Shown piece after piece: positions 17,206 through 32,531 of a DNA stretch of 64,000 nucleotides. The stretch covers positions 186,001 through 250,000 of the forward strand of contig JANFNE010000002.1 of assembly GCA_024867545.1 (NCBI GenBank), written 5' to 3'. A program made the position numbers and the translations under genes. Every line of letters begins with the position of its first letter. The stretch's first letter is position 1. A model generated the notes under the pieces. That model was not told the origin of the DNA and did not search any database. It was given only the letters and a program-made list of their open reading frames with translations. This DNA is from Phytopythium helicoides (taxonomy: Eukaryota > Oomycota > Peronosporomycetes > Pythiales > Pythiaceae).

Positions 17206-20200
17206 CTAGAATACTGATTCTTCCACTGCACCTGATGAGTCGGAAAGCTGTGCCTCGAGGCGGTCGATTTGCTGTTGCATCTCCTGAAATGCTCGGACGA
17301 GATGCGGCACGAACCCGGCGTAGTCCAGCGACTTCCAGCCGTCAACGTCATGATGCACCAGCTGGGGAAGGACCTTCTCAATGTCGTCCGCAAGGAAGCC
17401 CATAAACTCACCGTTAGGCAAGTGGCGTTCAGGAAATTCGTCGCGACGCCAGCGATACGCGACCTATCATGATTGTTACCAGGGGGACATTCAAGTTAGA
17501 CATCGAATTAGGGCACGAAAAGTGTCAACCACGCACCGGTCGAAGTCCAGCAAGCAGTTCGCGTGCAGACGGAAGGTCGCGGATGTTCTTCTTCAAGCGC
17601 GAGTCGGATGATGTAGTGTGGGCAGCGGCGTACGAAGTGCCGGTGACATATTCATTGCCTCCAACATATAGGTCTTTGGCTACATCCACACCTCCAGAGA
17701 CCACGAGCGCTCCGTCATGGGCTCCTGTCGCGTCAGTTGTTGACGTGATTCTTGTAATACCCCCGATAGCCGTGTCAGAACCGACGTAAAGTTTCTTGGC
17801 GATACCGACGCCGCCGGTTACAACGAGCGCTCCATCAGTCGTGCCGGTGGCATCTGTGGTGACAGTGACTGCTGTGATCCCTCCAACGTAGAGGTTTTCT
17901 ACGATGCCGACGCCACCTGCGACTTTGAGCGCTCCTGTCGTGCTGCTTGTCGATGAGGTGGCGTCGGTTATGCTGGTCGCGCCACTTATGGTGGCAGTTC
18001 CCGTGACCGTGGCCCCACCGGTAATCGCTCCACCGCCGCTAATGGTAGCACCGCCTGTGACGCTGAGGCTTGAGCCAACGAAGAGTTTCTTGGCGATACC
18101 GACGCCGCCAGCGACAACGAGCGCTCCGTCCGTCGTCCCGGTTGCGTCTGTGGTGACGGAGACTGTCGTGACACCTGCTATGTTGGCCGTGGACGACAAT
18201 GTGGCTGCTCCAGTGATGGTAGCCGTGGAGGACATGGTGGTTGCTCCGGTGATGGTAGCCGTGCCGGTGATAGCCGCGTTCCCGGTGACTGCGAGAGCGC
18301 CGCCGACATTGAGGTTCTTGACAATGCCAGCACCACCAGCGACCTTGAGCGCGCCTGTTGTCGTGGTCGTTGATTCCGTGGTGTCGGAGATGGAGGTGAC
18401 GCCTGCTATGGTGGCCGTGGACGACAATGTGGCTGCTCCAGTGATGGTAGCCGTGGAGGACATGGTGGTTGCTCCGGTGATGGTAGCCGTGCCGGTGATG
18501 GCCGCATTCCCGGTGATGGCCGCGTTACCGCCGATTGTCGCTGCGCCAGTGACCCCAAGCGCGGCACCAATGTAGAGGTTTTCTACGATGCCGACGCCAC
18601 CTGCGACTTTGAGCGCTCCTGTCGTGCTGCTTGTCGATGAGGTGGCGTCGGTTATGCTGGTCGCGCCACTTATGGTGGCAGTTCCCGTGACCGTGGCCCC
18701 ACCGGTAATCGCTCCACCGCCGCTAATGGTAGCACCGCCTGTGACGCTGAGGCTTGAGCCAACGAAGAGTTTCTTGGCGATACCGACGCCGCCAGCGACA
18801 ACGAGCGCTCCGTCCGTCGTCCCGGTTGCGTCTGTGGTGACGGAGACTGTCGTGACACCTGCTATGTTGGCCGTGGACGACAATGTGGTTGCTCCGGTGA
18901 TGGTAGCCGTGCCGGTGATAGCCGCGTTCCCGGTGACTGCGAGAGCGCCGCCGACATTGAGGTTCTTGACAATGCCAGCACCACCAGCGACCTTGAGCGC
19001 GCCTGTTGTCGTGGTCGTTGATTCCGTGGTGTCGGAGATGGAGGTGACGCCTGCTATGGTGGCCGTGGACGACAATGTGGCTGCTCCAGTGATGGTAGCC
19101 GTGGAGGACATGGTGGTTGCTCCGGTGATGGTAGCCGTGCCGGTGATGGCCGCATTCCCGGTGATGGCCGCGTTACCGCCGATTGTCGCTGCGCCAGTGA
19201 CCCCAAGCGCGGCACCAATGTAGAGGTTTTCTACGATGCCGACGCCACCTGCGACTTTGAGCGCTCCTGTCGTGCTGCTTGTCGATGAGGTGGCGTCGGT
19301 TATGCTGGTCGCGCCACTTATGGTGGCAGTTCCCGTGACCGTGGCCCCACCGGTAATCGCTCCACCGCCGCTAATGGTAGCACCGCCTGTGACGCTGAGG
19401 CTTGAGCCAACGAAGAGTTTCTTGGCGATACCGACGCCGCCAGCGACAACGAGCGCTCCGTCCGTCGTCCCGGTTGCGTCTGTGGTGACGGAGACTGTCG
19501 TGACACCTGCTATGTTGGCCGTGGACGACAATGTGGCTGCTCCAGTGATGGTAGCCGTGGAGGACATGGTGGTTGCTCCGGTGATGGTAGCCGTGCCGGT
19601 GATAGCCGCGTTCCCGGTGACTGCGAGAGCGCCGCCGACATTGAGGTTCTTGACAATGCCAGCACCACCAGCGACCTTGAGCGCGCCTGTTGTCGTGGTC
19701 GTTGATTCCGTGGTGTCGGAGATGGAGGTGACGCCTGCTATGGTGGCCGTGGACGACAATGTGGCTGCTCCAGTGATGGTAGCCGTGGAGGACATGGTGG
19801 TTGCTCCGGTGATGGTAGCCGTGCCGGTGATGGCCGCATTCCCGGTGATGGCCGCGTTACCGCCGATTGTCGCTGCGCCAGTGACCCCAAGCGCGGCACC
19901 AATGTAGAGGTTTTCTACGATGCCGACGCCACCTGCGACTTTGAGCGCTCCTGTCGTGCTGCTTGTCGATGAGGTGGCGTCGGTTATGCTGGTCGCGCCA
20001 CTTATGGTGGCAGTTCCCGTGACCGTGGCCCCACCGGTAATCGCTCCACCGCCGCTAATGGTAGCACCGCCTGTGACGCTGAGGCTTGAGCCAACGAAGA
20101 GTTTCTTGGCGATACCGACGCCGCCAGCGACAACGAGCGCTCCGTCCGTCGTCCCGGTTGCGTCTGTGGTGACGGAGACTGTCGTGACACCTGCTATGTT

Positions 20201-23200
20201 GGCCGTGGACGACAATGTGGCTGCTCCAGTGATGGTAGCCGTGGAGGACATGGTGGTTGCTCCGGTGATGGTAGCCGTGCCGGTGATAGCCGCGTTCCCG
20301 GTGACTGCGAGAGCGCCGCCGACATTGAGGTTCTTGACAATGCCAGCACCACCAGCGACCTTGAGCGCGCCTGTTGTCGTGGTCGTTGATTCCGTGGTGT
20401 CGGAGATGGAGGTGACGCCTGCTATGGTGGCCGTGGACGACAATGTGGCTGCTCCAGTGATGGTAGCCGTGGAGGACATGGTGGTTGCTCCGGTGATGGT
20501 AGCCGTGCCGGTGATGGCCGCATTCCCGGTGATGGCCGCGTTACCGCCGATTGTCGCTGCGCCAGTGACCCCAAGCGCGGCACCAATGTAGAGGTTTTCT
20601 ACGATGCCGACGCCACCTGCGACTTTGAGCGCTCCTGTCGTGCTGCTTGTCGATGAGGTGGCGTCGGTTATGCTGGTCGCGCCACTTATGGTGGCAGTTC
20701 CCGTGACCGTGGCCCCACCGGTAATCGCTCCACCGCCGCTAATGGTAGCACCGCCTGTGACGCTGAGGCTTGAGCCAACGAAGAGTTTCTTGGCGATACC
20801 GACGCCGCCAGCGACAACGAGCGCTCCGTCCGTCGTCCCGGTTGCGTCTGTGGTGACGGAGACTGTCGTGACACCTGCTATGTTGGCCGTGGACGACAAT
20901 GTGGCTGCTCCAGTGATGGTAGCCGTGGAGGACATGGTGGTTGCTCCGGTGATGGTAGCCGTGCCGGTGATAGCCGCGTTCCCGGTGACTGCGAGAGCGC
21001 CGCCGACATTGAGGTTCTTGACAATGCCAGCACCACCAGCGACCTTGAGCGCGCCTGTTGTCGTGGTCGTTGATTCCGTGGTGTCGGAGATGGAGGTGAC
21101 GCCTGCTATGGTGGCCGTGGACGACAATGTGGCTGCTCCAGTGATGGTAGCCGTGGAGGACATGGTGGTTGCTCCGGTGATGGTAGCCGTGCCGGTGATG
21201 GCCGCATTCCCGGTGATGGCCGCGTTACCGCCGATTGTCGCTGCGCCAGTGACCCCAAGCGCGGCACCAATGTAGAGGTTTTCTACGATGCCGACGCCAC
21301 CTGCGACTTTGAGCGCTCCTGTCGTGCTGCTTGTCGATGAGGTGGCGTCGGTTATGCTGGTCGCGCCACTTATGGTGGCAGTTCCCGTGACCGTGGCCCC
21401 ACCGGTAATCGCTCCACCGCCGCTAATGGTAGCACCGCCTGTGACGCTGAGGCTTGAGCCAACGAAGAGTTTCTTGGCGATACCGACGCCGCCAGCGACA
21501 ACGAGCGCTCCGTCCGTCGTCCCGGTTGCGTCTGTGGTGACGGAGACTGTCGTGACACCTGCTATGTTGGCCGTGGACGACAATGTGGCTGCTCCAGTGA
21601 TGGTAGCCGTGGAGGACATGGTGGTTGCTCCGGTGATGGTAGCCGTGCCGGTGATAGCCGCGTTCCCGGTGACTGCGAGAGCGCCGCCGACATTGAGGTT
21701 CTTGACAATGCCAGCACCACCAGCGACCTTGAGCGCGCCTGTTGTCGTGGTCGTTGATTCCGTGGTGTCGGAGATGGAGGTGACGCCTGCTATGGTGGCC
21801 GTGGACGACAATGTGGCTGCTCCAGTGATGGTAGCCGTGGAGGACATGGTGGTTGCTCCGGTGATGGTAGCCGTGCCGGTGATGGCCGCATTCCCGGTGA
21901 TGGCCGCGTTACCGCCGATTGTCGCTGCGCCAGTGACCCCAAGCGCGGCACCAATGTAGAGGTTTTCTACGATGCCGACGCCACCTGCGACTTTGAGCGC
22001 TCCTGTCGTGCTGCTTGTCGATGAGGTGGCGTCGGTTATGCTGGTCGCGCCACTTATGGTGGCAGTTCCCGTGACCGTGGCCCCACCGGTAATCGCTCCA
22101 CCGCCGCTAATGGTAGCACCGCCTGTGACGCTGAGGCTTGAGCCAACGAAGAGTTTCTTGGCGATACCGACGCCGCCAGCGACAACGAGCGCTCCGTCCG
22201 TCGTCCCGGTTGCGTCTGTGGTGACGGAGACTGTCGTGACACCTGCTATGTTGGCCGTGGACGACAATGTGGCTGCTCCAGTGATGGTAGCCGTGGAGGA
22301 CATGGTGGTTGCTCCGGTGATGGTAGCCGTGCCGGTGATAGCCGCGTTCCCGGTGACTGCGAGAGCGCCGCCGACATTGAGGTTCTTGACAATGCCAGCA
22401 CCACCAGCGACCTTGAGCGCGCCTGTTGTCGTGGTCGTTGATTCCGTGGTGTCGGAGATGGAGGTGACGCCTGCTATGGTGGCCGTGGACGACAATGTGG
22501 CTGCTCCAGTGATGGTAGCCGTGGAGGACATGGTGGTTGCTCCGGTGATGGTAGCCGTGCCGGTGATGGCCGCATTCCCGGTGATGGCCGCGTTACCGCC
22601 GATTGTCGCTGCGCCAGTGACCCCAAGCGCGGCACCAATGTAGAGGTTTTCTACGATGCCGACGCCACCTGCGACTTTGAGCGCTCCTGTCGTGCTGCTT
22701 GTCGATGAGGTGGCGTCGGTTATGCTGGTCGCGCCACTTATGGTGGCAGTTCCCGTGACCGTGGCCCCACCGGTAATCGCTCCACCGCCGCTAATGGTAG
22801 CACCGCCTGTGACGCTGAGGCTTGAGCCAACGAAGAGTTTCTTGGCGATACCGACGCCGCCAGCGACAACGAGCGCTCCGTCCGTCGTCCCGGTTGCGTC
22901 TGTGGTGACGGAGACTGTCGTGACACCTGCTATGTTGGCCGTGGACGACAATGTGGCTGCTCCAGTGATGGTAGCCGTGGAGGACATGGTGGTTGCTCCG
23001 GTGATGGTAGCCGTGCCGGTGATAGCCGCGTTCCCGGTGACTGCGAGAGCGCCGCCGACATTGAGGTTCTTGACAATGCCAGCACCACCAGCGACCTTGA
23101 GCGCGCCTGTTGTCGTGGTCGTTGATTCCGTGGTGTCGGAGATGGAGGTGACGCCTGCTATGGTGGCCGTGGACGACAATGTGGCTGCTCCAGTGATGGT

Positions 23201-26200
23201 AGCCGTGGAGGACATGGTGGTTGCTCCGGTGATGGTAGCCGTGCCGGTGATGGCCGCATTCCCGGTGATGGCCGCGTTACCGCCGATTGTCGCTGCGCCA
23301 GTGACCCCAAGCGCGGCACCAATGTAGAGGTTTTCTACGATGCCGACGCCACCTGCGACTTTGAGCGCTCCTGTCGTGCTGCTTGTCGATGAGGTGGCGT
23401 CGGTTATGCTGGTCGCGCCACTTATGGTGGCAGTTCCCGTGACCGTGGCCCCACCGGTAATCGCTCCACCGCCGCTAATGGTAGCACCGCCTGTGACGCT
23501 GAGGCTTGAGCCAACGAAGAGTTTCTTGGCGATACCGACGCCGCCAGCGACAACGAGCGCTCCGTCCGTCGTCCCGGTTGCGTCTGTGGTGACGGAGACT
23601 GTCGTGACACCTGCTATGTTGGCCGTGGACGACAATGTGGCTGCTCCAGTGATGGTAGCCGTGGAGGACATGGTGGTTGCTCCGGTGATGGTAGCCGTGC
23701 CGGTGATAGCCGCGTTCCCGGTGACTGCGAGAGCGCCGCCGACATTGAGGTTCTTGACAATGCCAGCACCACCAGCGACCTTGAGCGCGCCTGTTGTCGT
23801 GGTCGTTGATTCCGTGGTGTCGGAGATGGAGGTGACGCCTGCTATGGTGGCCGTGGACGACAATGTGGCTGCTCCAGTGATGGTAGCCGTGGAGGACATG
23901 GTGGTTGCTCCGGTGATGGTAGCCGTGCCGGTGATGGCCGCATTCCCGGTGATGGCCGCGTTACCGCCGATTGTCGCTGCGCCAGTGACCCCAAGCGCGG
24001 CACCAATGTAGAGGTTTTCTACGATGCCGACGCCACCTGCGACTTTGAGCGCTCCTGTCGTGCTGCTTGTCGATGAGGTGGCGTCGGTTATGCTGGTCGC
24101 GCCACTTATGGTGGCAGTTCCCGTGACCGTGGCCCCACCGGTAATCGCTCCACCGCCGCTAATGGTAGCACCGCCTGTGACGCTGAGGCTTGAGCCAACG
24201 AAGAGTTTCTTGGCGATACCGACGCCGCCAGCGACAACGAGCGCTCCGTCCGTCGTCCCGGTTGCGTCTGTGGTGACGGAGACTGTCGTGACACCTGCTA
24301 TGTTGGCCGTGGACGACAATGTGGCTGCTCCAGTGATGGTAGCCGTGGAGGACATGGTGGTTGCTCCGGTGATGGTAGCCGTGCCGGTGATAGCCGCGTT
24401 CCCGGTGACTGCGAGAGCGCCGCCGACATTGAGGTTCTTGACAATGCCAGCACCACCAGCGACCTTGAGCGCGCCTGTTGTCGTGGTCGTTGATTCCGTG
24501 GTGTCGGAGATGGAGGTGACGCCTGCTATGGTGGCCGTGGACGACAATGTGGCTGCTCCAGTGATGGTAGCCGTGGAGGACATGGTGGTTGCTCCGGTGA
24601 TGGTAGCCGTGCCGGTGATGGCCGCATTCCCGGTGATGGCCGCGTTACCGCCGATTGTCGCTGCGCCAGTGACCCCAAGCGCGGCACCAATGTAGAGGTT
24701 TTCTACGATGCCGACGCCACCTGCGACTTTGAGCGCTCCTGTCGTGCTGCTTGTCGATGAGGTGGCGTCGGTTATGCTGGTCGCGCCACTTATGGTGGCA
24801 GTTCCCGTGACCGTGGCCCCACCGGTAATCGCTCCACCGCCGCTAATGGTAGCACCGCCTGTGACGCTGAGGCTTGAGCCAACGAAGAGTTTCTTGGCGA
24901 TACCGACGCCGCCAGCGACAACGAGCGCTCCGTCCGTCGTCCCGGTTGCGTCTGTGGTGACGGAGACTGTCGTGACACCTGCTATGTTGGCCGTGGACGA
25001 CAATGTGGCTGCTCCAGTGATGGTAGCCGTGGAGGACATGGTGGTTGCTCCGGTGATGGTAGCCGTGCCGGTGATAGCCGCGTTCCCGGTGACTGCGAGA
25101 GCGCCGCCGACATTGAGGTTCTTGACAATGCCAGCACCACCAGCGACCTTGAGCGCGCCTGTTGTCGTGGTCGTTGATTCCGTGGTGTCGGAGATGGAGG
25201 TGACGCCTGCTATGGTGGCCGTGGACGACAATGTGGCTGCTCCAGTGATGGTAGCCGTGGAGGACATGGTGGTTGCTCCGGTGATGGTAGCCGTGCCGGT
25301 GATGGCCGCATTCCCGGTGATGGCCGCGTTACCGCCGATTGTCGCTGCGCCAGTGACCCCAAGCGCGGCACCAATGTAGAGGTTTTCTACGATGCCGACG
25401 CCACCTGCGACTTTGAGCGCTCCTGTCGTGCTGCTTGTCGATGAGGTGGCGTCGGTTATGCTGGTCGCGCCACTTATGGTGGCAGTTCCCGTGACCGTGG
25501 CCCCACCGGTAATCGCTCCACCGCCGCTAATGGTAGCACCGCCTGTGACGCTGAGGCTTGAGCCAACGAAGAGTTTCTTGGCGATACCGACGCCGCCAGC
25601 GACAACGAGCGCTCCGTCCGTCGTCCCGGTTGCGTCTGTGGTGACGGAGACTGTCGTGACACCTGCTATGTTGGCCGTGGACGACAATGTGGCTGCTCCA
25701 GTGATGGTAGCCGTGGAGGACATGGTGGTTGCTCCGGTGATGGTAGCCGTGCCGGTGATAGCCGCGTTCCCGGTGACTGCGAGAGCGCCGCCGACATTGA
25801 GGTTCTTGACAATGCCAGCACCACCAGCGACCTTGAGCGCGCCTGTTGTCGTGGTCGTTGATTCCGTGGTGTCGGAGATGGAGGTGACGCCTGCTATGGT
25901 GGCCGTGGACGACAATGTGGCTGCTCCAGTGATGGTAGCCGTGGAGGACATGGTGGTTGCTCCGGTGATGGTAGCCGTGCCGGTGATGGCCGCATTCCCG
26001 GTGATGGCCGCGTTACCGCCGATTGTCGCTGCGCCAGTGACCCCAAGCGCGGCACCAATGTAGAGGTTTTCTACGATGCCGACGCCACCTGCGACTTTGA
26101 GCGCTCCTGTCGTGCTGCTTGTCGATGAGGTGGCGTCGGTTATGCTGGTCGCGCCACTTATGGTGGCAGTTCCCGTGACCGTGGCCCCACCGGTAATCGC

Positions 26201-29200
26201 TCCACCGCCGCTAATGGTAGCACCGCCTGTGACGCTGAGGCTTGAGCCAACGAAGAGTTTCTTGGCGATACCGACGCCGCCAGCGACAACGAGCGCTCCG
26301 TCCGTCGTCCCGGTTGCGTCTGTGGTGACGGAGACTGTCGTGACACCTGCTATGTTGGCCGTGGACGACAATGTGGCTGCTCCAGTGATGGTAGCCGTGG
26401 AGGACATGGTGGTTGCTCCGGTGATGGTAGCCGTGCCGGTGATAGCCGCGTTCCCGGTGACTGCGAGAGCGCCGCCGACATTGAGGTTCTTGACAATGCC
26501 AGCACCACCAGCGACCTTGAGCGCGCCTGTTGTCGTGGTCGTTGATTCCGTGGTGTCGGAGATGGAGGTGACGCCTGCTATGGTGGCCGTGGACGACAAT
26601 GTGGCTGCTCCAGTGATGGTAGCCGTGGAGGACATGGTGGTTGCTCCGGTGATGGTAGCCGTGCCGGTGATGGCCGCATTCCCGGTGATGGCCGCGTTAC
26701 CGCCGATTGTCGCTGCGCCAGTGACCCCAAGCGCGGCACCAATGTAGAGGTTTTCTACGATGCCGACGCCACCTGCGACTTTGAGCGCTCCTGTCGTGCT
26801 GCTTGTCGATGAGGTGGCGTCGGTTATGCTGGTCGCGCCACTTATGGTTGCAGTTCCCGTGACCGTGGCCCCACCGGTAATCGCTCCGCCGCCGCTAATG
26901 GCAGCGCCGCCTGTGACGCTGAGACTTGAGCCAACGAAGAGTTTCTTGGCGATGCCGACGCCTCCACTGACGACTAGTGCTCCGTTGGCAGTCCCGGTGG
27001 CATCTGTGGTGTCACTGATTGCTGTGATCCCTCCAACGTTGAGCTTCTTGGCAATGGCAACTCCGCCTGCGACGACGAGTGCTCCCGTCGTCGTTCCTGA
27101 TGCGTCAGTCGTATCAGTGATGGTTGTGACGCCTGCGATGGTAGCCGTGGACGATAATGTGGTTGCTGCTGTTATGCTTGCAGTTCCTCCGACAAATATT
27201 TCCTTGGCGATACCGACGCCTCCACTGACGACTAGAGCTCCGTTGGCAGTCCCGGTGGCATCTGTGGTGTCACTGATTGCTGTGATCCCTCCAACGTTGA
27301 GCTTCTTGGCAATGGCAACTCCGCCTGCGACGACGAGTGCTCCCGTCGTCGTTCCTGATGCGTCAGTCGTATCAGTGATGGTTGTGACGCCTGCGATGGT
27401 AGCCGTGGACGATAATGTGGTTGCTGCTGTTATGCTTGCAGTTCCTCCGACAAATATTTCCTTGGCGATACCGACGCCTCCACTGACGACTAGAGCTCCG
27501 TTGGCAGTCCCGGTGGCATCTGTGGTGTCACTGATTGCTGTGATCCCTCCAACGTTGAGCTTCTTGGCAATGGCAACTCCGCCTGCGACGACGAGTGCTC
27601 CCGTCGTCGTTCCTGATGCGTCAGTCGTATCAGTGATGGTTGTGACGCCTGCGATGGTAGCCGTGGACGATAATGTGGTTGCTGCTGTTATGCTTGCAGT
27701 TCCTCCGACAAATATTTCCTTGGCGATACCGACGCCTCCACTGACGACTAGTGCTCCGTTGGCAGTCCCGGTGGCATCTGTGGTGTCACTGATTGCTGTG
27801 ATCCCTCCAACGTTGAGCTTCTTGGCAATGGCAACTCCGCCTGCGACGACGAGTGCTCCCGTCGTCGTTCCTGATGCGTCAGTCGTATCAGTGATGGTTG
27901 TGACGCCTGCGATGGTAGCCGTGGACGATAATGTGGTTGCTGCTGTTATGCTTGCAGTTCCTCCGACAAATATTTCCTTGGCGATACCGACGCCTCCACT
28001 GACGACTAGAGCTCCGTTGGCAGTCCCGGTGGCATCTGTGGTGTCACTGATTGCTGTGATCCCTCCAACGTTGAGCTTCTTGGCAATGGCAACTCCGCCT
28101 GCGACGACGAGTGCTCCCGTCGTCGTTCCTGATGCGTCAGTCGTATCAGTGATGGTTGTGACGCCTGCGATGGTAGCCGTGGACGATAATGTGGTTGCTG
28201 CTGTTATGCTTGCAGTTCCTCCGACAAATATTTCCTTGGCGATACCGACGCCTCCACTGACGACTAGAGCTCCGTTGGCAGTCCCGGTGGCATCTGTGGT
28301 GTCACTGATTGCTGTGATCCCTCCAACGTTGAGCTTCTTGGCAATGGCAACTCCGCCTGCGACGACGAGTGCTCCCGTCGTCGTTCCTGATGCGTCAGTC
28401 GTATCAGTGATGGTTGTGACGCCTGCGATGGTAGCCGTGGACGATAATGTGGTTGCTGCTGTTATGCTTGCAGTTCCTCCGACAAATATTTCCTTGGCGA
28501 TACCGACGCCTCCACTGACGACTAGAGCTCCGTTGGCAGTCCCGGTGGCATCTGTGGTGTCACTGATTGCTGTGATCCCTCCAACGTTGAGCTTCTTGGC
28601 AATGGCAACTCCGCCTGCGACGACGAGTGCTCCCGTCGTCGTTCCTGATGCGTCAGTCGTATCAGTGATGGTTGTGACGCCTGCGATGGTAGCCGTGGAC
28701 GATAATGTGGTTGCTGCTGTTATGCTTGCAGTTCCTCCGACAAATATTTCCTTGGCGATACCGACGCCTCCACTGACGACTAGAGCTCCGTTGGCAGTCC
28801 CGGTGGCATCTGTGGTGTCACTGATTGCTGTGATCCCTCCAACGTTGAGCTTCTTGGCAATGGCAACTCCGCCTGCGACGACGAGTGCCCCCGTTGTCGT
28901 TGATGCTGACTCTGTTGATGTGTCAATATGGACGTCACCGCTTGATACTGTGACCCCGACGTCGTTGACAGTGAGGCCACCAGAGATTCGTGCTCCATCT
29001 GTACTAATATCAAGCCCACCAGAAGTAATTGTGGCTCCTCCTGCTGATACTAAAAGCCCCCCTTGTGAAATGGTCGTCTTTCCGGTTCCGAGAACAGAGA
29101 ACAAAGCGCCGCTGGTTCCTTCGGCAAAAATTAGATATAGGCTCGTGTCTAACGGTGGAGGAGTAGAAGCACTAATGTGGAGTACTTTCCCGGTGTACGC

Positions 29201-31706
29201 GTTGCTTCCAGCAGATACACTAAGTACATCCTGACTAGCTGATGCAGTGGCAATCGTTGCGCCGCCATCTTGAACATTGAGGCCGCCGGCGTCGATCAAC
29301 TCGCCGCCGTTGATGATGTGCAGACCACCAGCCTCAATTGTTGCTCCAACGGACGTCACGTAAAGGCCACCAGAGTGAATCGTGGCACCACCCGCCATGA
29401 CCTCAAGTCCACCATGATAAATCGTTGTCAAGCCTGATTGTGCAATTGTGAACTGTATCACCCCTCCTGCAATCGCTTTCAACAAATTGTGCGTTTGCGA
29501 TGATGCGGTCTGGATCGATAACGCATCACCTGTAAATGCAGTGGCAGTCGGCTTGACCACAAGAGCTTCAGCTGTAGGATCCAGATTTGTTATCGATGCT
29601 CCACCCGTTCCACCGACAATCAATCCTCCGTTTGAGATTGTCGTCTTTCCTGAGGCTTCCACTGTGAACGCATCAACACCGTTCGCATTCGCATCGATCA
29701 ACAAATAGTCAGCGAGAGGATACTTTGAAGTCGTGGTGGTGTCCAGTTTGAAAAGTGAGCCGGTGAAGGCGCTGTTGGGATCGGTGTTTTTCACCAAGAG
29801 CGAATTCGCAGCGCTTTGAGTATTGGAGATCGTCGCACCCCCGTCTTGGACGAAAAAGCCACCTCGGTAAATCGAAGTTAGCCCGTCGCCTCGAATATCA
29901 ACCATCGGGGTAGTACCAATAGTCTTCGCCTCGAACAGCATGAACTGTGTTGATGGTGCTCTTACAGCTCGTACCCGTAAAGTTGAGCCCGTGAACCAGG
30001 GATCTGTGCTGAGTATATCGACAGTGTTTTCCGTCGTACCAGAGCTCACGATCGTCGCCCCACCGTCCAAAATACTCAACCCAAGTGTCTTGATCGTAGC
30101 CCCAGCATAAACACTCAATGACCCAGTCGATATTTCCATATTACCAGTCAGCAGTTTTGTGTTTCCAAACCCGTCCATGGTCAAGATGGTGGTTGACGCT
30201 GCTTCAAACAACATGAACTTGAAGTCGGATGCAGACCCTTTTGTTGTCATCAAGTGCAACACGTTGCCAGTGTAGTCGGTGTCTTGAGGATTTACCAAAA
30301 ACCCGTCGTTATCACTGATGCTATCTGGAATATTTGATCGCTGGTTGCAGTCTGCACCTTTGAAATCTGCATAGCAAACACATTGTCCAGATGTGAAGTC
30401 GCAAAGTCCTCGATTGGAACAGTACTCGTGCTCTGCGAGGAATCATCATCACCGATCAGCCAGGGCAATGTATATGAACCATACTACTCTTACCAATTAG
30501 ATTTGTTGCAACTGAATCAGTAATGGCACAAGTAGGGCTGTTGCTCGTGACTCCACTGATGTCGCATGTAAAGCTGCTAAGTGGCGGGTTTCCGAAGTGG
30601 AAGAATATGTTGTTCTCTCCATCAACATGAGTCCATTCAGTGAATTGCACTGTGTACACAGCTCCCTGCGTTGTTGGATTGATGCTCGAGATCGTACATG
30701 CTGCTTGGCGGACATTTGCCATCTTTTCGAACGCACTAGCGCAAGATGTGGCATCATTCCCAGCTGCACTCGCGCTCAATGTTGCGATTTCACCGTTGAA
30801 ACGAATTTTGATTGTGCCCACGAGCAAGTTTGATCCGCCGACTGTAATCACAATTGCCCGATACTGCTGCCCTGTTGTGAGTGGGTCGTCGTTCTTGGGG
30901 CACATGTCTAATGGAAAGCACAACAAAGGCCATCAGCAGCAGGCTAGGCACTCACTGACACTCAATACCGAAGTTGCATTGCCCTTACTCAGTGAGCAAT
31001 CCGGTCCAGTGTATCCCGCATCGCAGAAGCACGCAGACATGCTGTCCTTCTCCCAGTTTGAGTACACTGGCCCAACACCATCTCCACCAACACCTGGTAG
31101 TGTATCCGGGCCGTATAAGAGTGCAAGGGATGCCAACGAATAGCATAAGCCATGCCCCGAGCAGTCGGATGGGCATCGAACTGAGGCGTACGGAGTGTCA
31201 GAGAGGAGAGATCAAAGCAATGGTATCCAACAACACTTACGCCGCTGGCAAGCAGCGCCAGTAAATCCTGTAAAGCAGCTACACTCTCCCTGTTGTCACA
31301 AGATATTGACGAGCCGCATGAGCCAGCTCTCAGGCAAGTTTAAAGCACAAGCAACGCATGCACCTTGGAATAGTCACAGACACCTCGGTTCGAGCACTCA
31401 GCAACTGCGTGAGCCACATTCGCAGCGCTCGCCTTATCCGTCCATGCGACGCCTGTCGGACACATACGCATCGAGCAGTCTGGAGCAAGTGCCCATCCTG
31501 ACTCGCATTGACATTTGCTGTGCGAATGGAGTAAATGAGATCGCAATCAACAACATCTCTCAGTCCTCAATTTCTCACTTCGAGGCGCTGCATCGACCGT
31601 GACCCGAGCACGAGTTGGCACAAGCAGCGTCGACCCCAGGGAGCACGACCGCAACTGCTGTCAACAGAAACAGAGCAATTGCTATAGCGGAGGAGCGAGG
31701 CATCAT
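17206..31706 (-). CDS. Giant secreted repeat protein with EGF-like modules and C-terminal S74 chaperone
   Basis: Seven phase-consistent exons (31579-31706, 31364-31517, 31241-31289, 30989-31180, 30494-30907, 17537-30432, 17206-17463) give about 4,696 aa. It starts with a signal peptide (MMPRSSAIAIALFLLTAVAVV, cleaved near VDA; shown here as its first 20: MMPRSSAIAIALFLLTAVAV). Cysteine-rich EGF/tenascin-like modules follow (CSGHGRC, CSCFTGFTGAAC, CFCDAGYTGPDC), then an MCPKNDDPLTTG module and another EGF-like unit. One 12.9-kb exon encodes glycine-rich GATI/GGLxV repeats, seven 86-aa units and about thirteen 228-aa units built on GALVVAGGVGIAKKL.VG. The C-terminus is a Peptidase_S74 intramolecular chaperone (SDSRLKKNI...LRPVAYRW...GFLADDIEKVLPQLV) ending in a coiled coil. 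By analogy with phage tail spikes it probably trimerises and releases its chaperone by self-cleavage. Its role, perhaps a cell-surface or extracellular fibre, is inference. Confidence 0.88.
17880..26952 (-). repeat. Tandem array of about thirteen 684-bp units
   Basis: The same point of the unit recurs at 17904, 18588, 19236, 19920 and then every 684 bp to 26760. Twelve spacings are 684 bp and one (18588-19236) is 648 bp, lacking 36 bp in frame (12 residues). Inner units look identical over long stretches; the unit beginning at 26760 has several substitutions, marking the array edge. Each unit encodes 228 aa with three GALxVAGGxGI modules and runs of six-residue repeats. Confidence 0.97.
26953..28890 (-). 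repeat. Tandem array of seven to eight 258-bp units
   Basis: Anchor positions recur every 258 bp at 27181, 27439, 27697, 27955, 28213, 28471 and 28729, with a partial unit before and a diverged one after. Each encodes 86 aa containing GALVVAGGVAIAKKLNVGG and GALVVSGGVGIAKEIFVGG. It lies in the same exon, directly N-terminal to the 228-aa repeats. Confidence 0.95.
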
Positions 31707-32192: not shown

Positions 32193-32531
32193 TTAGCGGT
32201 AACGCGGCCATCTCTAGGACAGCCTCCACCGTACCAACCACCAAGTCCTCAACCTTTACCAATTACCAGAGCAGCCTCCTTGTTGTGCATCGCAGTCGTC
32301 ACCTCCATCCCCGACACTACGGAATCAACGACCATTGTCATTGACGGATCTACCTTAGTCCAGCACCTCATCATCTCGATGTCACCAACACCACTACGTC
32401 CACCACCGCCTTCAACATGCCGCCGTCACCACACGTCGCGACCGCATCCAGGTCCGCCCGACCATCACTCCGCCGCCTTTCTCTCACTTTGACGCCCATA
32501 TCTTTTCTCTTCCCCGGATCGCACGGGCGCC
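32193..32531. other. Upstream region of the Vps39-like gene
   Basis: A CA/CC-rich, pyrimidine-rich interval immediately 5' of the plus-strand gene starting at 32532. It presumably contains the promoter; no specific element was identified. Confidence 0.5.

Follow-up and report, generated by a model that had tools for sequence, protein, structure and literature searches.

A single giant gene on the minus strand of Phytopythium helicoides DNA (31706-17206 of the window, the whole 64,000-nucleotide stretch analysed) joins, from N to C terminus, a leader, an EGF-rich head, a repeat stalk and a C-terminal Peptidase_S74 domain in a predicted protein of 4,696 aa (~438 kDa). On balance we favour a secreted, trimeric, self-processing surface fibre that would use a flagellar-hair-type head as its anchor, likeliest on the zoospore flagellum or its hairs; we infer the trimer, the cleavage, the location and the length. 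The mastigoneme-type nature of the head, as judged from alignment, is an addition to the preliminary description of this gene. The family described here provides a concrete, testable candidate for one component of the stramenopile tripartite flagellar hair, whose part-by-part protein make-up is, to our knowledge, largely undefined. If the proposal is true, it would be a second eukaryotic use, besides MYRF, of the phage self-cleaving fibre chaperone, here in an extracellular fibre; it would also present a natural fibre whose length can change by recombination, and oomycetes may bear phage-style fibres on their own cell surface.

Gene Model and Domain Organization

The gene has seven exons and six GT-AG introns, with the ATG at 31706 and the stop codon ending at 17206 (minus strand). 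Its parts are as follows.

31579..31706, minus strand: exon 1, start codon, hydrophobic leader (by eye) and first EGF part (gene model)
31364..31517, minus strand: exon 2, EGF-like head part (gene model, Pfam)
31241..31289, minus strand: exon 3, EGF-like head part (gene model, Pfam)
30989..31180, minus strand: exon 4, EGF-like head part (gene model, Pfam)
30494..30907, minus strand: exon 5, CPKNDDPLTTGQ segment and middle module of the head (gene model, head alignment)
17537..30432, minus strand: exon 6, 12,896 bp, last head EGF, unique stalk, repeat arrays and start of S74 (gene model)
26945..28750, minus strand: 258-bp array, seven units, 0-2 mismatches against the reference unit (repeat comparison)
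19236..26759, minus strand: 684-bp array, eleven identical units (repeat comparison)
17353..17608, minus strand: Peptidase_S74, residues 4588-4648, containing the 73-bp intron (Pfam; codon of Ser4588 starts at 17608; Lys4593)
17464..17536, minus strand: sixth intron, 73 bp, within S74 (gene model)
17206..17463, minus strand: exon 7, remaining S74, C-terminal heptad-like segment and stop (gene model, Pfam)

The five 5′ introns measure 61, 74, 60, 81 and 61 bp, and the joined exons stay in register with proteins of P. rubi, P. fragariae and P. ramorum, which are themselves predictions and not transcripts. Exon 6 carries the repeat stalk without introns, and the ORF scan finds an uninterrupted open frame on the minus strand from 30298 to 17525. 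In the head, Pfam recognizes EGF_Teneurin (3.9e-19) and EGF_2 (4.5e-17), and at the C terminus Peptidase_S74 (PF13884; 1.7e-12, 47.8 bits against a curated cut-off of 22); the hydrophobic leader was judged by eye. Together, these results bear out what the preliminary description had drawn from the DNA: one gene with exactly these limits, five 5′ introns and one at 17464-17536 (all GT-AG, with flanks in register with the Phytophthora predictions), an intronless repeat exon of 12.9 kb, and a secretory EGF front. Its proposed Pfam search matched both EGF and Peptidase_S74.

The stalk is rich in Gly, Thr, Ala and Val and free of Cys (residues 358-4580 contain 0 Cys and 11 Pro), and a 1,433-aa piece scanned from exon 6 gave no Pfam match. 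A crude letter scan for transmembrane segments found no hydrophobic run of 15 or more in the protein, nor was there a transmembrane Pfam match in the parts scanned. The gene is absent from the seven matches of a whole-genome Pfam search for S74, presumably because the intron splits its domain.

The Head Resembles a Mastigoneme Protein

A search of a large protein database pairs the 350-aa head with P. infestans PITG_09306 (33% identity, 96% query coverage, E 5.1e-47). The two align from the leader through the last EGF, with identity at 119 of 357 columns, so that the homology to a named mastigoneme protein spans the full head. Over its 325 aa, PITG_09306 presents the same parts in the same order, namely leader, EGF modules, CPxxDDPLTxxQ segment, middle module and last EGF, but stops there, whereas the giant protein adds a stalk of ~4,200 aa and S74. 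According to the pertinent passages of Judelson et al., 2012 (PMC3471859), PITG_09306 and two other proteins are classed as mastigoneme (flagellar hair) proteins; RNA of all three is very low in nonsporulating hyphae, and that of PITG_09306 is strongly up at the sporangia stage. In passages of PMC12223298, three EGF-bearing mastigoneme proteins of Phytophthora are placed in flagellar membranes, and S74 does not appear there.

Such heads are numerous. The database search returned 249 proteins at E ≤ 1e-10; among the 120 of these that were listed, named sources comprise oomycetes, a brown alga, a chrysophyte, a pelagophyte and a raphidophyte, and no row there or in the searches that gave the orthologs and the C9 family, most rows being without a species name, bears the name of the downy mildews Bremia, Peronospora or Hyaloperonospora. 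In the P. helicoides genome itself, 24 of 29 head matches lie outside the window gene, at 12 loci by our own grouping. A tree of 68 heads, thinned from 127 at 60% identity (P0105 was among those dropped) and built with a quick method, SH-aLRT support only and a midpoint root, splits with SH-aLRT 99 into 28 rows with the giant and 40 rows with PITG_09306. In this quick tree with one named row, the giant head thus lies in a clade sister to that of PITG_09306 and not within it. Its own clade includes a shorter EGF+S74 paralog family (the C9 family), P0039, P0041, P0022, P0025 and proteins of Thraustotheca, Ectocarpus and Ochromonadaceae; the PITG_09306 clade holds the remaining five P. helicoides heads that the tree retained. 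At least three glycine-rich stalk motifs occur in 15 of the 28 rows on the giant's side versus none of the 40 on the mastigoneme side, in a sample drawn mostly from a search limited to about 196-625 aa, in which long stalks are under-seen on both sides. We read the giant's head clade as a putative stramenopile fibre family, sister to the mastigoneme proteins.

Repeats of the Stalk

The stalk contains 58 GAL[VK]V[AST]GG modules. Its 684-bp array (19236-26759) is a run of eleven successive units without a single difference, and in its 258-bp array (26945-28750) the seven units depart from the reference unit at 0-2 bases; these copy numbers rest on the genome assembly. Because the eleven units are identical, the array appears to have been recently expanded or homogenised, provided the assembly is right; the massive repeat expansion claimed earlier can thus be called recent. 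Upstream of the gene, at 32197-32334 of the window, part of the repeat recurs in inverted and degenerate form (73% identity across 150 columns).

Against PHROGs, which are families built from phage proteins, the 1,433-aa exon-6 piece matches four families, including phrog_3018 (4.8e-49, 19 stretches) and phrog_697 (2.4e-33), and the C terminus matches 32, with 16 of the kind tail among the 25 listed. PHROG matches of P0029 (P. rubi) and P0041 are confined to the S74 end, and a scan of P0022 gave none. Since beyond the S74 end neither the P0029 stalk nor that of P0022 has a PHROG match, the stalk match belongs to the GALVV repeats of the P. helicoides genome and not to the stalks of the whole family. 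Repeats vary among relatives as well: eight P. fragariae proteins (P0030, P0032-P0038) carry 9 to 14 GGASISD-like modules each and two P. rubi proteins carry 17 and 19, with one GALVV in each of the ten; four of these ten miss a head segment, and part of the length difference reflects annotation. From these sequences, separate lineages have amplified different repeats on one shared scaffold.

The S74 Domain and Phage Fibres

S74 proteins trimerise, fold the stalk that precedes the domain and cleave themselves. The motif S-D-x-R-x-K is invariant in all eight S74 domains aligned, and the giant keeps it intact, with Ser4588 and Lys4593 at a spacing of 5. The self-cleaving pair of MYRF, S578/K583, has the same spacing in the portion of PMC3742443 that describes it. 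An S74 profile search of solved structures returned five sequences at E ≤ 0.01, with a phage long tail fibre (6f45) at 2.7e-14 and MYRF (7dc3) at 6.1e-10. MYRF/MrfA likewise has an S74/ICA domain in a eukaryotic gene with an equally spaced Ser/Lys pair, but is a membrane-tethered transcription factor, whereas the giant has the architecture of a secreted fibre; Pfam matched no MYRF-type DNA-binding domain in the parts of the giant scanned.

The giant C terminus matches 364 phage records, all below 60% identity, and the P. rubi stalk-S74 cassette matches 493 at E ≤ 1e-3. In two marine Kyanoviridae records, AG-345-F15 and AG-345-L05, a GALIV module is followed by S74 in one frame. The distance from the GALxV module to the S74 motif is 26 residues in the Kyanoviridae proteins L219 and L220 (by eye), 29 in P. 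rubi and 35 in the giant; L219 has T at the R position of SDxRxK. Phage S74 tail fibres and tailspikes, including L219 and L220, thus share with the giant a stalk followed by S74 but differ in that the EGF head, the introns and the host context are the giant's own. The earlier claim of phage-type modules with S74 holds, since the stalk matches PHROGs and two marine phages carry GALxV and then S74; the likeness covers fibre modules and S74 in the giant and, among the orthologs scanned, S74 only.

Other searches returned less. Among 160 IMG/VR loci fetched, the GALVV-then-S74 cassette occurs in none and the strict module in 22, all within the 80 fetched with a query holding part of the module, so that this count is not a frequency. 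No relatives were confirmed for the P. rubi cassette in viral_contigs or genome_contigs, or for the viral-type S74 of the P. helicoides contig C80 in viral_contigs. Searching phages by tblastn with the repeat as sole query yielded nothing, which low-complexity filtering may explain. Structure prediction produced only poor models (mean pLDDT 44 and 46), and a fold search had no hit at E ≤ 0.001. In the literature library searched, no published description pairs oomycetes with peptidase S74, consistent with the earlier remark that the product seems undescribed; endosialidase with Phytophthora retrieved only a paper on polinton-like viruses (PMC12220804), and no S74 term appeared in the best few of the many matches of a broader search.

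A Putative Surface Fibre

We propose that the leader would take the protein into the secretory path, where the C-terminal S74, by analogy with phage fibres, would join three chains and nucleate folding of the stalk into a long, beta-structured trimeric fibre. Like its counterparts in phage tailspikes and MYRF, S74 would then cleave the chain at Ser4588, and the mastigoneme-type EGF head at the other end may anchor the fibre to the cell surface, likeliest the zoospore flagellum and its hairs. Fibre length would be set by repeat number. In T4 gp37, about 1,000 residues span 70 nm, a scale on which the stalk would reach roughly 0.25-0.3 µm.

Several results count against this account: on present alignments the head sits in a sister clade and not in that of PITG_09306, the P0029 and P0022 stalks match no phage family, and the structure models were weak and the fold search empty. 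Only the head points to a flagellar hair, and it does not by itself fix the site, because EGF heads form a large family, with the 12 own-genome loci besides the giant. The same trimeric fibre could instead serve as an adhesin or coat fibre of the cyst, germling or hyphal wall, with the EGF head as a general surface anchor. The size of the head family and the giant's place outside the named clade fit such a role, and recent repeat homogenisation and variable length in relatives would suit an adhesin, but among relatives of the head with a named function a mastigoneme protein comes nearest, and we consider a non-flagellar site possible though rather unlikely. Returning to the flagellar fibre, we put forward only tentatively, as an idea we ourselves doubt, that stramenopile flagellar hairs, possibly their fine terminal filaments, might be built partly from a tail fibre of phage type that was domesticated and fused to a mastigoneme protein; self-cleavage of S74 in the secretory path would then be a checkpoint for assembly, and the number of repeats a ruler of fibre length.

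Relatives and Origin

Ten of 13 proteins from one search are orthologs in P. rubi and P. fragariae with head, stalk and S74 joined; a head ortholog in P. ramorum (P0042) shares 73% identity over 93% of the giant head, and close heads occur in P. insidiosum and Lagenidium. The C9 family is common to Phytophthora, Plasmopara, Pythium and Lagenidium. Its members (562-1,396 aa) resemble the giant in having EGF, a glycine-rich stalk and S74 (21 of 28 rows) but differ in that no GALVV module was found and in their separate S74 clade; some C9-type relatives bear the automatic database names EGF-like or Peptidase S74 domain-containing. Proteins from two further sources, P0039 and P0041, also combine EGF, stalk and S74.

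In an S74 tree of 97 rows and 133 columns, thinned from 161 hits at 85% identity, the giant clade (3 rows, 100/98) groups with 14 rows from viruses and 4 viral-type rows of P. helicoides itself (97/93), apart from the C9 clade (18 rows, 100/100); P0023 pairs with P0039 beside neither, and P0041 lies elsewhere on a long branch. This topology suggests separate viral origins of the giant and C9 domains. Holding the two together costs 4.3 log units (p-AU 0.435), and adding P0023, P0039 and P0041 brings the cost to 4.9 (p-AU 0.385). The best identities of the giant domain are about 35-37% to viral rows and 57% to P. rubi. In the phylogeny proposed earlier, then, viral rows do adjoin the giant clade, but as aligned here the tree names no viral donor, nor does it nest the domain cleanly in eukaryotes.

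The surroundings resemble those of host genes. Ten neighbouring ORFs were scanned, and every one has a match in a cellular family (kinases, PI3/4-kinase, BT1, methyltransferase, ankyrin, Vps39, WW/RCC1, PPR). GC3 of the head (0.52), unique stalk (0.49) and two arrays (0.51 and 0.68) falls between the extremes of seven host genes (0.48-0.72); in the same genome (49.06 Mb, 100 contigs), four S74 genes of viral type have 0.24, 0.28, 0.46 and 0.56. Neighbours and composition are thus host-like, and with cellular neighbours, host-like GC3 and introns, no viral genome or element was found around the gene.

These data bear on the capture of a fibre gene from a phage or polinton-like virus, recently fused to a host EGF gene in the P. 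helicoides lineage. The viral rows beside the giant S74 clade, the GALxV-S74 order in two phages and the wide occurrence of S74 fibres in polinton-like viruses, as stated in part of PMC12220804, would agree with it, and make polinton-like viruses and phages possible old sources of S74. EGF+S74 relatives across Phytophthora, Pythium and Lagenidium nevertheless argue that no recent capture made the giant gene; with the Phytophthora orthologs and close heads, the intron within S74, the host-like GC3 and neighbours, a single origin with the C9 paralog that is not rejected, and far closer S74 identity to P. rubi than to viral rows, we regard it as very unlikely. Of the earlier capture claim, the phage likeness therefore stands, through the two Kyanoviridae proteins, and a capture special to the giant gene does not, given the orthologs, close heads and C9 paralog. 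Least likely of all is an artefact, be it two genes, head and stalk, taken for one or a wrongly assembled array: the gene model comes from DNA alone and eleven perfectly identical units are hard to assemble, but the ten proteins of P. rubi and P. fragariae show the three parts joined likewise, and the C9 family has a shorter version of this arrangement.

Five other-type S74 genes (L002-L006; contigs C88, C97, C80, C87 and C40) lie on contigs of 35-88 kb; one adjoins a NUMOD4/HNH endonuclease, and the one on C40 lies 3.2 kb from a type-B polymerase match. These loci are perhaps polinton-like viral elements. Contigs C9 (about 0-42 kb and 74-81 kb) and C49 (62-92 kb) hold giant open frames of 7,496, 5,949, 5,273 and 2,444 aa, among others, that match a GSVxVxSGxS repeat query. 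As an EGF head precedes the same repeat type in P0025 and P0041, these frames may be sister fibre genes. At about 1490-1670 of L007 (C9:36.7 kb), just before a large GSVxVxSGxS frame, an S74 match is apparently split across two frames.
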